In this document: piece by piece, positions 18,189 to 22,442 of the stretch
Position numbering within the stretch: position 1 is the stretch's first letter
How the letters are laid out: every line of letters starts with the position of its first letter
Origin: Catenulispora sp. MAP5-51
Lineage (GTDB): Bacteria; Actinomycetota; Actinomycetes; Streptomycetales; Catenulisporaceae
Direction: 5' to 3'
NCBI RefSeq assembly: GCF_041261205.1
Contig: NZ_JBGCCH010000003.1
Coordinates: 310,001 to 374,000 of the forward strand
Length of the DNA stretch: 64,000 bases
Notes under the pieces: model-generated
What the model was told of the DNA's origin: nothing
The model's database searches: none
Seen by the model: the letters and a program-made list of their open reading frames with translations, nothing else
Made by a program: the position numbers and the translations under genes

Positions 18189-18354
18189 AATCCGTCACCC
18201 TGGCATGGCTAGGTCGGAGAAACGCGTTCCTACCCACATGGGCCATGGGGCAATCCTCCTATCGGGTCAGAAAATCGCGATCTTCTTCACCCGATCAGCG
18301 CATCATTTGACAGACCGCCCCCACAGTCACCGCCTGCGGGCCTACCCTTGGGCA

Positions 18355-19605
18355 ATGGACCAGGCTCACCAAGCGCCGGTCGCGAGCGACTCGGCCTCCG
18401 CATCGGATCAGCACGCGCACGTCTCGGACGTGCTCGACGTGGTGGGTCACCTCGTGCCAGAGCTGGTCCTCTTCCGGCGGGACCTCCATGCCAACCCCGA
18501 GCTGAGCCGTGCCGAGTTCCGGACCACCGCGGCCATCGCCGCGCGGCTGGAGCGGGCCGGGCTCGCGCCCCGGGTGCGCGGTGTCGGGACCGGTCTGGTC
18601 TGCGACATCGTCCCGGCGGGCAGCGAGAAGCTGCCCTTCCTGGCCTTCCGGGCCGACATCGACGCGCTGCCGGTCGAGGAGGCCAACGAGCTCGACTTCC
18701 GCTCCAGGGTCCCGGGCGTCATGCACGCCTGCGGGCACGACGTGCACACCGCCGTGGTCCTGGGCGCGGGCCTGGCCCTGGCCGAACTGGCCCGCGCCGG
18801 GCGGCTGACCCGGCCGGTGCGCCTGGTCTTCCAGCCCGCCGAGGAGGTCATGCCCGGCGGCGCGCTGGACATGGTGGCCGAGGGCGCGCTGTACGGGGTC
18901 AGCAAGATCCTGTCCGTCCACTGCGACCCGAAGCTGGACGCCGGCCAGGTGGGCCTGCGCACCGGGCCGCTGACCGCGGCCTGCGACATGGTCTCGCTGA
19001 CCCTGGACGGCCCCGGCGGCCACACCTCCCGGCCGCACCTGACCGCCGACCTGGTCTACGCCCTGGCCTCGATCGTGGCCGAGGTCCCGGCGGCGCTGTC
19101 CCGGCGCATCGACCCGCGCGCCGGCCTGTCCCTGGTCTGGGGCCAGATCGCGGCCGGCAGCGCGCCGAACGCGATCCCCGGCCACGGCTCGGCCAAGGGC
19201 ACCATCCGCACCCTGGACCAGGACGCCTGGAACCAGGCCCCGGACGTGGTGCACGAGCTCATCGACGCGATCGCCGCGAAGTTCGGCGTCAAGCACACCC
19301 TGGACTACGTGCAGGGCGTGCCCCCGGTGGTGAACGAGGCCGAGTCGGTGGCCCTGCTGCGCACCGCGGCCTCCCGGGCCCTGGGCGGCGAGGCGGTGGT
19401 CAGCACCCCGCAGTCCCTGGGCGGCGAGGACTTCGCCTGGTACCTGCAGCGGGTCCCCGGCGCCATGGCCAGGCTCGGCGTGCGCACCTCCGGCGACAAG
19501 GCCGTGCGCGATCTGCATCAGGGGACGTTCGTGGCCGACGAGGGCGCGATCGCGGTCGGCGTCCGGATGCTCGCCACCGCCGCGCTGTGCGACTGGATCA
19601 GCTGA
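18355..19605 (+). CDS. M20-family amidohydrolase
   Basis: A 416-residue cytosolic metallohydrolase of the M20D (hippurate hydrolase/N-acyl amino acid amidohydrolase) type. Metal ligands are in MHACGHDVHTAVVLG, QPAEEVMPGG and the late HLGGED-like LGGEDFAWYLQ. The lid domain includes GHTSRPHLTADLV. The ATG at 18355 precedes a ~35-residue Ser/Ala-rich lead. It probably removes an acyl group from an amino acid; the substrate is unknown. It is followed directly by the giant palindromic element. Confidence 0.9.
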   Translation: MDQAHQAPVASDSASASDQHAHVSDVLDVVGHLVPELVLFRRDLHANPELSRAEFRTTAAIAARLERAGLAPRVRGVGTGLVCDIVPAGSEKLPFLAFRADIDALPVEEANELDFRSRVPGVMHACGHDVHTAVVLGAGLALAELARAGRLTRPVRLVFQPAEEVMPGGALDMVAEGALYGVSKILSVHCDPKLDAGQVGLRTGPLTAACDMVSLTLDGPGGHTSRPHLTADLVYALASIVAEVPAALSRRIDPRAGLSLVWGQIAAGSAPNAIPGHGSAKGTIRTLDQDAWNQAPDVVHELIDAIAAKFGVKHTLDYVQGVPPVVNEAESVALLRTAASRALGGEAVVSTPQSLGGEDFAWYLQRVPGAMARLGVRTSGDKAVRDLHQGTFVADEGAIAVGVRMLATAALCDWIS

Positions 19606-19668
19606 GCGTTCGCGGGAAGCAGCGCTTGTGAGTTGTCCGTGGGTGGCGGGTGGCGCGATGCGGTTGAG

Positions 19669-19843
19669 TGGTGGGTTTTAGGAGCTTTTTACGGCTTCGC
19701 GCAGGGTTCACGGGATCCGTGGGTGGCGCGGGTCAGGGGTCCCTTGTGTCGTGTCAGGGCGGCGGGGGTGTGGGCAGATGGTCGGGTCTACGGCCACGGG
19801 CAAGACCAAAAGCGACAATCAAGAGCAGAGGCGACAGTCAAGG
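19669..19843 (+). repeat. Left 175-bp arm of perfect inverted repeat
   Basis: By direct reading, every base from 19669 to 19843 is complementary to 20892-20718. It begins TGGTGGGTTTTAGGAGC and ends GCGACAGTCAAGG-like. Such identity implies recent duplication or ongoing conversion. Confidence 0.92.
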
Positions 19844-19950
19844 TCAAAGGCTTACAGGCGCCTCCGGCGGCGCCTGCGCGGCGAGCGGCCTCGCTCCGGG
19901 GAGTGGGGGTTGCGCTGCCCGGCGGCGGTCGTTGCTTGTGGTCGCCTTCG

Positions 19951-20103
19951 TCCCGGATTCCCCGTCGCATCGTCGCCTTACGGAAGCAGACCGGTCCGGT
20001 GGTATCAAGTCGGATCGCCCAGCTGTTGGTCCAGTATCAGCGACTTGACACCACCGGCCCGGCCTGCTTGGCTTCGCCCGCCGACGCGACGGGGAATCCG
20101 GGA
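19951..20103 (+). repeat. Left two-stem hairpin unit of the palindrome
   Basis: The outer stem TCCCGGATTCCCCGTCGC (19951-19968) pairs perfectly with 20086-20103. The inner stem CCGGTGGTATCAAGTCG (19996-20012) pairs with 20041-20057 with one mismatch and extends by a weaker 10-bp stem (19986-19995 with 20058-20067). The loop is 28 bases. Confidence 0.85.
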
Positions 20104-20245
20104 CAACCCCGCCTGTGGGAAGGGTTCCCGCACCCCATGCCCGCAGACTCACCGCCGCGTGTGCGTCGGTGACGTCCATCGACGTGGTGTAAGCAATCTT
20201 CGACGTGGGCAGGACGCAAGACACGCCCGAGCGCGTGGTGATCTT

Positions 20246-20294
20246 CATGGATGTGAAGAACCGGCCATCAGCAGGCCGGTTTTTCACATCCATG
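20246..20294. repeat. Central 21-bp hairpin
   Basis: Bases 20246-20266 pair with 20274-20294 with a single G-T type mismatch around a 7-base loop. It lies at the symmetry centre of the 1.3 kb palindrome, where extrusion or RNA folding would nucleate. The descending strand has a TTTTT run, so it could also act as a terminator. Confidence 0.85.
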
Positions 20295-20414
20295 GGCTCA
20301 GATGCCCACTGCGGCAGCTGTGACCCGGGGCTTCACCGCTGAAGACTACTTACACCACGCCAGTGGACCCGTGCGTCGCGGAGTGGACCGAGTCCACACC
20401 ACAGGCCGGGGTTG

Positions 20415-20572
20415 TCCCGGATTCCCCGTCGCTTCGGCGGTGCTTGCACAACCATCCTGGACTGGGCGGTGTCCAGCCGGACGAAACCGGTGGCCAGTAA
20501 CAGCGATCCGGCTTGACACCGCCCAGGCCGGGATGGTTCCCTCCGGGCGACGAAGCGACGGGGAATCCGGGA
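20415..20572 (-). repeat. Right two-stem hairpin unit of the palindrome
   Basis: The outer stem TCCCGGATTCCCCGTCGC (20415-20432) pairs perfectly with 20555-20572 and is identical to that of the left unit. The inner stem CTGGGCGGTGTCCAGCCGGA (20462-20481) pairs with 20507-20526 with one mismatch and extends outward (20450-20461 with 20527-20538). The inner stem sequence differs from the left unit but remains paired. Confidence 0.85.
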
Positions 20573-20662
20573 CAGAGGCGACCACAAGCAACGTCCGCCG
20601 GCAGCCAGCGCGGCCCCCACTCCCCGGAGCGAGGCCGCTCGCCGCGCAGGCGCCGCCGGAGG

Positions 20663-20727
20663 CGCCCTTGACTGTCGCCCTTGACTGTCGCCCTTGACTG
20701 TCGCCCTTGACTGTCGCCCTTGACTGT
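20663..20727 (-). repeat. Five tandem copies of a 13-bp unit
   Basis: CGCCCTTGACTGT is repeated exactly five times at 20663-20727 in the right arm; the left arm has a single copy near 19830-19843. There are no spacers, so this is not a CRISPR array. It looks like a slippage expansion. Confidence 0.9.
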
Positions 20728-20892
20728 CGCCTCTGCTCTTGATTGTCGCTTTTGGTCTTGCCCGTGGCCGTAGACCCGACCATCTGCCCACACCCCCGCC
20801 GCCCTGACACGACACAAGGGACCCCTGACCCGCGCCACCCACGGATCCCGTGAACCCTGCGCGAAGCCGTAAAAAGCTCCTAAAACCCACCA
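20718..20892 (-). repeat. Right 175-bp arm of perfect inverted repeat
   Basis: Exact reverse complement of 19669-19843. Similarity continues outward at lower identity to about 20938. Confidence 0.92.
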
Positions 20893-21131
20893 CCAGCCGC
20901 AGACGCCGCGCCACCCCGCAACCCACAGACAAGTCACGACCGCCCGGAAGGGCGCGGCGGCGAACACGGGATGGCGTCGGCTTAAAGGAACCTCAACGCG
21001 CGGGTGACGCGGCGCAAGCCCCTGAACAGCACATCGGCCAGACATTGACGATGAGTTGGCACCTTATGTCCCTTTCCCCCCCTTTCGCCGCCGCTTGGTG
21101 CGTGCGCCCCGTAATCCCCCGGCGGCGTCGT

Positions 21132-21154
21132 GCGATCATGCCGAAAATGATCGC
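21132..21154. promoter_or_regulatory. Inverted repeat upstream of nucleoside importer operon
   Basis: GCGATCAT and ATGATCGC form a perfect 8-bp inverted repeat with a 7-base spacer, 137 bases before the lipoprotein start. It is a candidate repressor site for the operon. The rest of 20939-21290 shows no gene; a Shine-Dalgarno (GGAGGGGGAG) precedes the start. Confidence 0.4.
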
Positions 21155-21290
21155 CTGTTCCGGGATCACAGGTGTATTGCGATGTGGCCCCGCAAGCGCT
21201 GAACTGACTGACCAATAGGTACGGCCTGCTTACGCTGTCTACCGTCGTCCACATTGTGGCTGTCTTATCGAAAGATCTGGAGGGGGAGCC

Positions 21291-22442
21291 GTGCGCACCA
21301 CCAACATGACCAGGATCGCCGCCACCGCGGCCGTGGTGGCCCTGGCCGCCGCGGGCTGCGGCTCGAAGTCGACCGCGGGTTCGAGCTCTTCGAGCACGAC
21401 CGGTTCGACGACCTCCGCGTCGTCCTCGTCCTCGTCCACCTCGGGCGGCTCCGCCTCGAACGCCAACTTCCAGGCGTGCATGGTGACCGACACCGGCGGT
21501 ATCGACGACCGCTCGTTCAACGCCTCGGCCTGGAAGGGCATGCAGGACGCGCAGACCGACGGCAAGGCCAAGGTGAAGTACGTCCAGTCGGCGACGGAGA
21601 ACGACTACGTCACCAACATCACCAGCCTCGAGTCGCAGAACTGCAACCTGATCGTCACGGTCGGCGGCCTGATGGCCGACGCCACGGACAGCCAGGCCGC
21701 GGCCAAGCCGGGCCAGAACTTCGCGATCGTCGACAACAGCTCGGCGGACAGCAAGACCAACAAGCCGGTGCCGAACGTGCACGGCATGGAGTTCAACACC
21801 GCGCAGGGCGGCTTCCTGGCCGGCTACCTGGCCGCCGCGTCCTCCAAGTCCGGCGTCGTGGCCACCTGGGGCGGCATGAACATCCCGCCGGTGACCATCT
21901 ACATGGACGGCTTCTGGGAAGGCGTCCAGTACTACAACAAGGCCAAGAGCAAGAGCGTGAAGGTCCTGGGCTGGGACGAGACCAACCCCAGCAGCGGCAC
22001 CTTCTCGAACTCCTTCACGGACACCAACAAGGGCAAGTCGATCACCGACGGCTTCATCAACCAGGGCGCCGACATCGTCTTCCCGGTCGCCGGCGGCGCC
22101 GGGCGCGGTGCCACGGCCTCGGCCAAGGCCGGCAAGGCCAAGGTGATCTGGGTCGACAGCGACGGCTGCGTCTCGGACAACGAGGACTGCTCGGTGTTCC
22201 TGGCCTCGGTGACCAAGGGCATCGAGACCGCGGTGAAGAAGACGGTCGAGGACGCCGCGGCCGGCAACTTCAAGGGCGGCACCCAGGACGTCCTGGACCT
22301 GTCCAACGGCGGCACCGACCTGGTGTACGGCCAGCAGCTGGGCTCCTCGATCCCGTCGGACCTGCAGACCGAGATCACGAACCTGAAGTCGCAGATCACC
22401 GCCGGCACGATCAAGATCACCTCGCCGTCCCAGCCGAAGTAA
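21291..22442 (+). CDS. BMP-family nucleoside-binding lipoprotein
   Basis: A 383-residue lipoprotein with signal peptide and lipobox (VALAAAGC, Cys23), then a Ser/Thr-rich tether to ~55 and a BMP/PnrA-like binding domain. VTDTGGIDDRSFNASAWKGM is the hallmark of this family, which binds purine and pyrimidine nucleosides. Residues NLIVTVGGLMADAT and VFPVAGGAGRGATA line the expected cleft. It starts at GTG 21291 with a strong GGAGGGGGAG site. First gene of the importer-salvage operon. Confidence 0.92.
   Translation: MRTTNMTRIAATAAVVALAAAGCGSKSTAGSSSSSTTGSTTSASSSSSSTSGGSASNANFQACMVTDTGGIDDRSFNASAWKGMQDAQTDGKAKVKYVQSATENDYVTNITSLESQNCNLIVTVGGLMADATDSQAAAKPGQNFAIVDNSSADSKTNKPVPNVHGMEFNTAQGGFLAGYLAAASSKSGVVATWGGMNIPPVTIYMDGFWEGVQYYNKAKSKSVKVLGWDETNPSSGTFSNSFTDTNKGKSITDGFINQGADIVFPVAGGAGRGATASAKAGKAKVIWVDSDGCVSDNEDCSVFLASVTKGIETAVKKTVEDAAAGNFKGGTQDVLDLSNGGTDLVYGQQLGSSIPSDLQTEITNLKSQITAGTIKITSPSQPK

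Follow-up and report, generated by a model that had tools for sequence, protein, structure and literature searches.

Prokaryotic MITEs are non-autonomous, intergenic elements with terminal inverted repeats (TIRs), target direct repeats, ends shared with an IS and a predicted transcript that folds strongly, and they are described as 'typically <500 bp' and AT-rich (PMC10969869). Correia elements (CREE) of Neisseria are mobile and often intergenic, with inverted ends at which they can generate promoters and an RNA hairpin that is read by RNase III, and they measure ~70-157 bp and often insert at TA (PMC2649163). ERIC, REP/BIME and REPIN repeats are likewise multicopy palindromic repeats outside genes, but far shorter than the element described here. 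REPs are tied to a transposase class other than ISL3; IS of the ISL3 family have ends that begin GGCGC and duplicate 8 bp of target, which is often rich in T or A.

Here we describe a palindrome found in a 64,000-nucleotide stretch of the genome of Catenulispora sp. MAP5-51 (the whole of the analysed DNA, hereafter the window) that resembles several of these systems in part. It shares with MITEs the features listed above: it has no transposase of its own, it has TIRs and a target duplication, and it shares its ends with an autonomous IS. Unlike typical MITEs, it measures 979-1,324 bp without nested genes, has a GC content of 66-69% and contains two units that fold independently and whose covariation signal is strand-specific; because of its length and GC content, we call it MITE-like and not a typical MITE. 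Ends and 8-bp duplications are of the ISL3 kind, but arms and units stand where an ISL3-family IS has its transposase gene. With CREE it shares a mobile, often intergenic habit, inverted ends and a hairpin in RNA (predicted here), but the palindrome is about 1 kb long, has two predicted four-way junctions and uses 8-bp targets, as opposed to the TA target and ~70-160 bp of Correia/NEMIS elements (PMC2649163).

Anatomy of the element

An inverted-repeat search bore out the 1.3-kb inverted repeat reported in a preliminary description of this DNA, with its ends corrected to 19621 and 20944, where conservation stops in an alignment of 65 arms (1,324 bp, TIR to TIR). According to the same alignment and its printed ends, the left TIR (19621-19645, + strand) is the diverged AGCGCTTGTGAGTTGTCCGTGGGTG (consensus searched, GGCGCCCCTGACNNRTGTGTGGGTG) and the right TIR (20920-20944, - strand) is GGCGGTCGTGACTTGTCTGTGGGTT when read inward. 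The outer left arm (19668-19843) is 100% complementary to the outer right arm (20718-20893) over 176 nt, as checked by equality and close to the 175 bp of identical flank first claimed, and an inner arm pair (19857-19977 and 20546-20666, 121 nt) matches at 93%. Further in lie unit A (19950-20104, outward (sense) strand -; covariance model score 159.7 bits), with a predicted four-way-junction structure, and unit B (20414-20573, outward (sense) strand +; 154.1 bits), which has the predicted structure of unit A with different stem sequence; both units (model matches L089:3351-3505:- and L089:3815-3974:+) belong to the alignment on which the model was trained. The closing helices of both units and the inner stem of unit B are listed by the inverted-repeat search; the inner stem of unit A is not in that list and was read from the sequence and seen in the predicted fold.

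Where all four boxes are intact, copies are ordered as arm, unit, centre, second unit and arm, with each unit bounded by two inverted 17-bp boxes that lie 134-141 bp apart. Among the 13 copies in which both terminal motifs were located, 11 are 979-1,095 bp long and the other two carry inserts. The centre of the window copy (20105-20413) contains the small inverted repeats GGGAAGGGTTCCC and GTGGACCGAGTCCAC, and the two three-base-loop hairpins previously noted at 20114-20132 and 20383-20397 are present when read from the sequence. At 309 bp it is longer than the ~100 bp of most copies owing to an insert (borders approximately 20174 and 20368) that has inverted ends of its own and, in its middle, a 21-bp hairpin (20246-20294). 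This extra sequence of ~209 bp otherwise occurs only in copies L051 and L052, as judged against 26 other copies with centres of 102-105 bp, and has no genome match at E <= 0.001 outside these three. It sits at the same spot in all three and is 99-100% identical over the 184 bp compared, despite the window half overall being just 87% and 82% like the L051 and L052 copies; the pattern is one of mosaic copies, produced by gene conversion or re-transposition. Another apparent recombinant, seen in the alignment, combines a B-type stem with an A-type loop (L056, 3261-3420). The 13-bp tandem repeats CTTGACTGTCGCC (20663-20731) occur in the right arm only and break the left-right symmetry of the window copy.

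Inspection by eye of the element's reading frames found no transposase (Pfam was run on the flanking genes alone). Upstream lies a peptidase M20 family gene (18205-19605, + strand, start codon unrefined; PF01546, E = 1e-38), and downstream a gene for a BMP/PnrA-like ABC transporter substrate-binding lipoprotein (21291-22442, + strand; PF02608, E = 1.9e-52).

Copies and taxonomic range

One half of the palindrome gave at least 135 BLAST matches in its own genome (with the best 40 of 225 first-look candidates scored), which were grouped by hand into 39 places. The unit was present at least in part in all 39 fetched regions (L051-L089), and three further loci (L141, L205 and L206) also bear it, so own-genome copies number at least 39. 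All 10 genomes of the genus that were searched contain a palindrome match. With the covariance model, the unit was found in 10 of the 147 genomes of an order sample, all within the genus, and in 1 of the 296 genomes of a phylum sample, namely the own genome; the other 137 and 295 genomes, respectively, gave no unit when the best 20 (order) or best 10 (phylum) candidates per genome were scored under strict filters, by which distant forms could be missed, and at least 8 genomes are common to the two samples. Some copies are incomplete: three loci (L139, L142 and L143) are partial palindromes with terminal repeat and arm sequence in which no unit was found, and four others from relatives G001 and G009 (L100, L105, L110 and L126) yielded a single full-length unit between their arms.

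Several other identities were considered and set aside. A search of 72,556 plasmid and 50,697 phage records (E 1e-5; very close records may be missing from the result) returned no match to the palindrome, which speaks against a plasmid or phage element. The box sequence has five exact hits in other named bacteria, all in unrelated species and at loci where the model finds no unit. The preliminary description could match the palindrome to no known riboswitch, intron or REP family, and no Rfam (release 15) family reaches its gathering score in the window; in L089 only two microRNA families appear, far below threshold and apparently spurious. Nor is the palindrome a single copy or an assembly artefact, since copies are dispersed and the palindrome is present in a relative assembled as one 10,467,782-bp contig. 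Among open-licence papers, searched by title or abstract start, we found no description of such palindromes in Catenulispora.

Mobility

The terminal motif of the palindrome is GGCGCCCCTGAC..RTGTGTGGGTG, and in the 65 aligned arms conservation runs up to this motif and not beyond it. Immediately outside, 8 of the 13 elements have unshifted flanking 8-mers that match at 7 or all 8 positions (all 8 in 6 elements; for example GGTTAAGC, TTTTCTCA, AGAAAAGC and CATTTTGT), and the flanks of the other 5 agree at 2-6 of 8 positions, with no clear duplication. An automatic test recovered duplications in 6 of 26 own-genome elements versus 0 of 650 mismatched pairings; the end pattern it used was loose and put some ends in the wrong place (L075 and L079, for instance, where the duplication is visible by eye). 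At the window site, the spacing from the M20 gene to the BMP gene is ~290-470 bp in all eight readable relatives (those with both flanking genes on the fetched locus) versus 1,685 bp here (tblastn ends), and the site in each of these relatives is therefore too short for the element. The contig of a ninth relative, G008, begins inside an arm at this site, which indicates that it shares the insertion; this sharing is consistent with the decay of the window copy's duplication (CGGGAAGC and CGGAAGGG, 5 of 8). That the palindrome is a mobile element is well supported by these observations, and we consider it very probable.

A candidate mobiliser is suggested by the ends. Relative G001 carries an intact 1,403-bp element (L149, 1426-2828) with a 425-amino-acid DDE_Tnp_ISL3 transposase (PF01610, E = 6.8e-71), ends (GGCGCCYCTGACTYATCCGTGGGT; given separately as GGCGCCCCTGACTTATCCGTGGGT and GGCGCCTCTGACTCATCCGTGGGT) that are nearly those of the palindrome, and the 8-bp duplication CATTTTTC on both sides. 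In the own genome, a 3' ISL3 remnant (L158/L135) ends in GGCGCCTCTGACCTATGTGTGGGT, one base off the palindrome consensus, and no intact ISL3 element with palindrome-like ends was seen among the 5 of 6 PF01610 matches inspected. Given the shared ends and duplication length, an ISL3-family transposase would move the palindrome in trans, and the palindrome is a giant non-autonomous MITE-like passenger.

Other transposase genes and ends were also encountered. A second ISL3-family element, with ends GGCTCTTCG unlike those of the palindromes, occurs in G004 and the own genome (L150 and L151). An IS256/Mutator-type transposase gene (L058, 3591-4946; PF00872, E = 3.1e-125) lies inside the centre of one palindrome, and the centre may be a landing site; IS256 was rejected as the mobiliser because this gene is nested there with its own ends.

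Predicted fold and covariation of the units

Read from centre to arm, the ~155-nt unit is predicted to form a long closing helix that encloses two mini-hairpins with a long inner hairpin between them. The RNA minimum-energy fold contains the four-way junction in 65 of 79 units on the outward strand and in 63 of 79 on the opposite strand, as is to be expected for hairpins.

The claim that the stems covary held up in a structural alignment of 24 units (A1; 25 non-redundant units, minus 3 incomplete ones from L036, L100 and one of L129, plus the two window units). Paired cells made up 98.5% of 1,224 versus 89.0 in shuffled alignments, two-sided changes affected 21 of the 51 pairs versus 12.0, and the covariation score was 0.310 versus 0.115, with 0 of 500 shuffles reaching the observed value for any of these measures; for further pair types, 6 of the 500 shuffles did attain it. 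When partners were slid by 1-3 columns, which keeps relatedness intact, the controls gave at most 46.1% paired cells, 6 pairs and a score of 0.071, a comparison that leans toward the structure, as this is the RNAalifold consensus of the same 24 rows. Whole stems of the first mini-hairpin are swapped between copies (GTGC..GCAC, GGC..GCC and TGGC..GCCA). The covariance model built from such copies recovers others genus-wide.

A divergent subfamily in G002, G003 and G006 has a different closing helix and units of ~173 nt and keeps the junction. The GGCGCC end (<=4 mismatches) was absent in 10 of the 11 loci of this subfamily that were read; the lone match, in L202, faces away from the palindrome and is probably the start of an adjacent ISL3 piece. 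At ~2382 of that locus, an ISL3-type end, GGCGCCCCTGACTTATCCGTGGGT, begins where the palindrome arm stops, and there is an ISL3 match on the same contig. Several ends in the subfamily (L195-L204 and L214) read GGGTTCGGR followed by a T-run and are perhaps the ends of another mobiliser.

Strand bias of imperfect pairs

In any hairpin, an imperfect G.T pair on one strand is an A.C pair on the other. Across 125 units, the arm-to-centre strand has 136 A.C and 8 G.T pairs, and the outward strand therefore has 136 G.U and 8 A.C. Counted as parsimony gains on a tree of the 122 distinct units, outward G.U outnumbers A.C by 55 to 7 (P = 2.4e-10 if independent). By cells, the outward G.U:A.C ratio is 47:0 for A units, 31:0 for B units and 3:0 for untyped units in the own genome, and 17:4 in G001 (where it is weaker), 10:1 in G009 and 28:3 in other genomes among the relatives. 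The 18 units of the divergent subfamily, which played no part in defining the structure, give 58:0, with their alignment fitted to the model and the strand chosen by the better model score. Unpaired sites are biased in the same direction but more mildly (128:72), and part of the strand signal may accordingly be mutational; the stem bias exceeds that of unpaired sites (Fisher P = 1.2e-4) as well as that of the arms (Fisher P = 1.6e-7). At the centre ends, oriented A-first, there are 10 G.T and 14 A.C pairs, and thus no bias. At the 51 loci scanned, both units face outward in each of the 28 elements that have two, and together with the 55 versus 7 gains this orientation makes the selected molecule appear single-stranded and of outward polarity. 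Selection on the fold of the unit on the outward strand is thus supported and, in our judgement, likely.

Single-stranded DNA would give the same strand bias, and the strongest alternative is that the unit works as single-stranded DNA, or as an extruded cruciform that a protein recognises, as in parvoviral ends and Streptomyces telomere hairpins. DNA hairpins also tolerate G.T, and the outward strand is the more stable one in 76 of 79 units with DNA parameters, compared with 66 of 79 with RNA parameters; in addition, the mini-hairpins have GAA, GCA or GTA loops, which are very stable in DNA, in 10 of 24 rows, although the others are TCT, TTT, CCT or two bases. Yet a given DNA strand has the favoured polarity for one unit and the unfavoured polarity for the other, and both unit types are biased. 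Moreover, the mobiliser is DDE-type by Pfam family, and no DDE-type transposase is known to use hairpins of single-stranded DNA. We therefore regard a DNA role as unlikely and favour the reading in which the unit acts as RNA, which seems somewhat the better bet; divergent synthesis of this RNA from the centre would be the simplest reading of the outward bias.

Less likely still is a selfish palindrome with no selected fold, in which template switching or gene conversion (quasi-palindrome correction) maintains the pairing between the complementary halves. The perfectly complementary outer 176 bp of the window copy would fit such correction, and the mosaic units and the shared centre insert suggest that copies have recombined. 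Correction should, by our reasoning, show no strand preference, contrary to the excess of G.U gains in the stems, and it should also act in the outer arms, where mismatches are frequent (660 in 6,812 positions) and, at 140:170 plus 350 other mismatches, without bias (27 own-genome four-box elements, L085 giving no arm pairs; cells, not events). Within the units, a purine-purine mismatch of the inner stem (A1 columns 49/116; A.G or G.A) is kept, not corrected, in 21 of 24 units from several species.

Genomic context

Of the elements with enough flank, 25 of 44 lie between convergent genes, 14 between tandem genes and 5 between divergent genes, and convergent pairs account for 9 of 65 neighbouring pairs at these loci (Fisher P = 5e-6) and, across the window, for 7 of 34 (P = 0.002), with genes called by a GC3-based caller that is not validated and pairs counted where gaps exceed 30 bp. 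By eye, many ends abut the T-runs of terminator-like hairpins, and insertions are often in T- or A-rich runs. We interpret the placement between convergent genes as a target preference combined with selection against other positions. No sigma-70-like promoter was found in 19500-21300, and a scan gave one terminator-like site versus 1.3 expected. A role as transcription terminator or 3'-end stabiliser for flanking genes, although in keeping with the convergent placement and with insertion beside terminator-like hairpins, is very unlikely: incoming transcripts would read the first unit they meet from arm towards centre, a direction in which its imperfect pairs are A.C rather than G.U, the placement is equally explained by target preference and selection against insertion near promoters, and the window copy sits between tandem genes.

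Discussion

Together, these results favour an ISL3-moved, MITE-like element that carries two divergently transcribed structured noncoding RNAs whose fold is under selection, a reading to which we assign a probability of roughly 0.6. The cargo would be the two ~155-nt four-way-junction units (fold predicted), facing outward from a centre of ~100 bp; both would be transcribed divergently from the centre outward, and selection would act on the fold of the resulting RNAs. These RNAs might serve the element rather than the host, for example as a structure for protein binding or processing by which the element is protected or regulated, which is a guess.

The preliminary description had proposed selection on structure and a structured RNA or DNA hairpin in place of simple junk. 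Selection on structure is supported for the outward ~155-nt unit, present twice, but not for the 1.3-kb palindrome as a whole: because the palindrome is a transposable element bounded by ends of the ISL3 type, its outer part needs no structural selection, and mismatches there are free of strand bias. Plain junk is likewise contradicted by covariation above controls, but the transposable nature of the locus had been missed.

More tentatively, and with slightly less than an even chance, the palindrome could represent a new kind of mobile element, an ISL3-borne giant palindrome with paired divergent RNAs of a new structural class that selection keeps through helix replacement. This class would be a four-way junction that has no Rfam match, is limited to the genus among the genomes searched and also occurs in the GGCGCC-less subfamily.

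Short IS derivatives are the usual picture of bacterial MITEs, and the palindrome is at least twice the usual length. Long palindromes are expected to be unstable in bacteria, and dozens of copies per genome therefore raise the question of how such palindromes are tolerated. The comparison of outward G.U with A.C, with the arms as an internal control, tells selection apart from the self-correction of palindromes and could be applied to other palindromic repeats. In Catenulispora, strand-specific signs of selection, present in each of the 10 genomes searched, suggest a possible new RNA of mobile DNA, which is a testable proposal.
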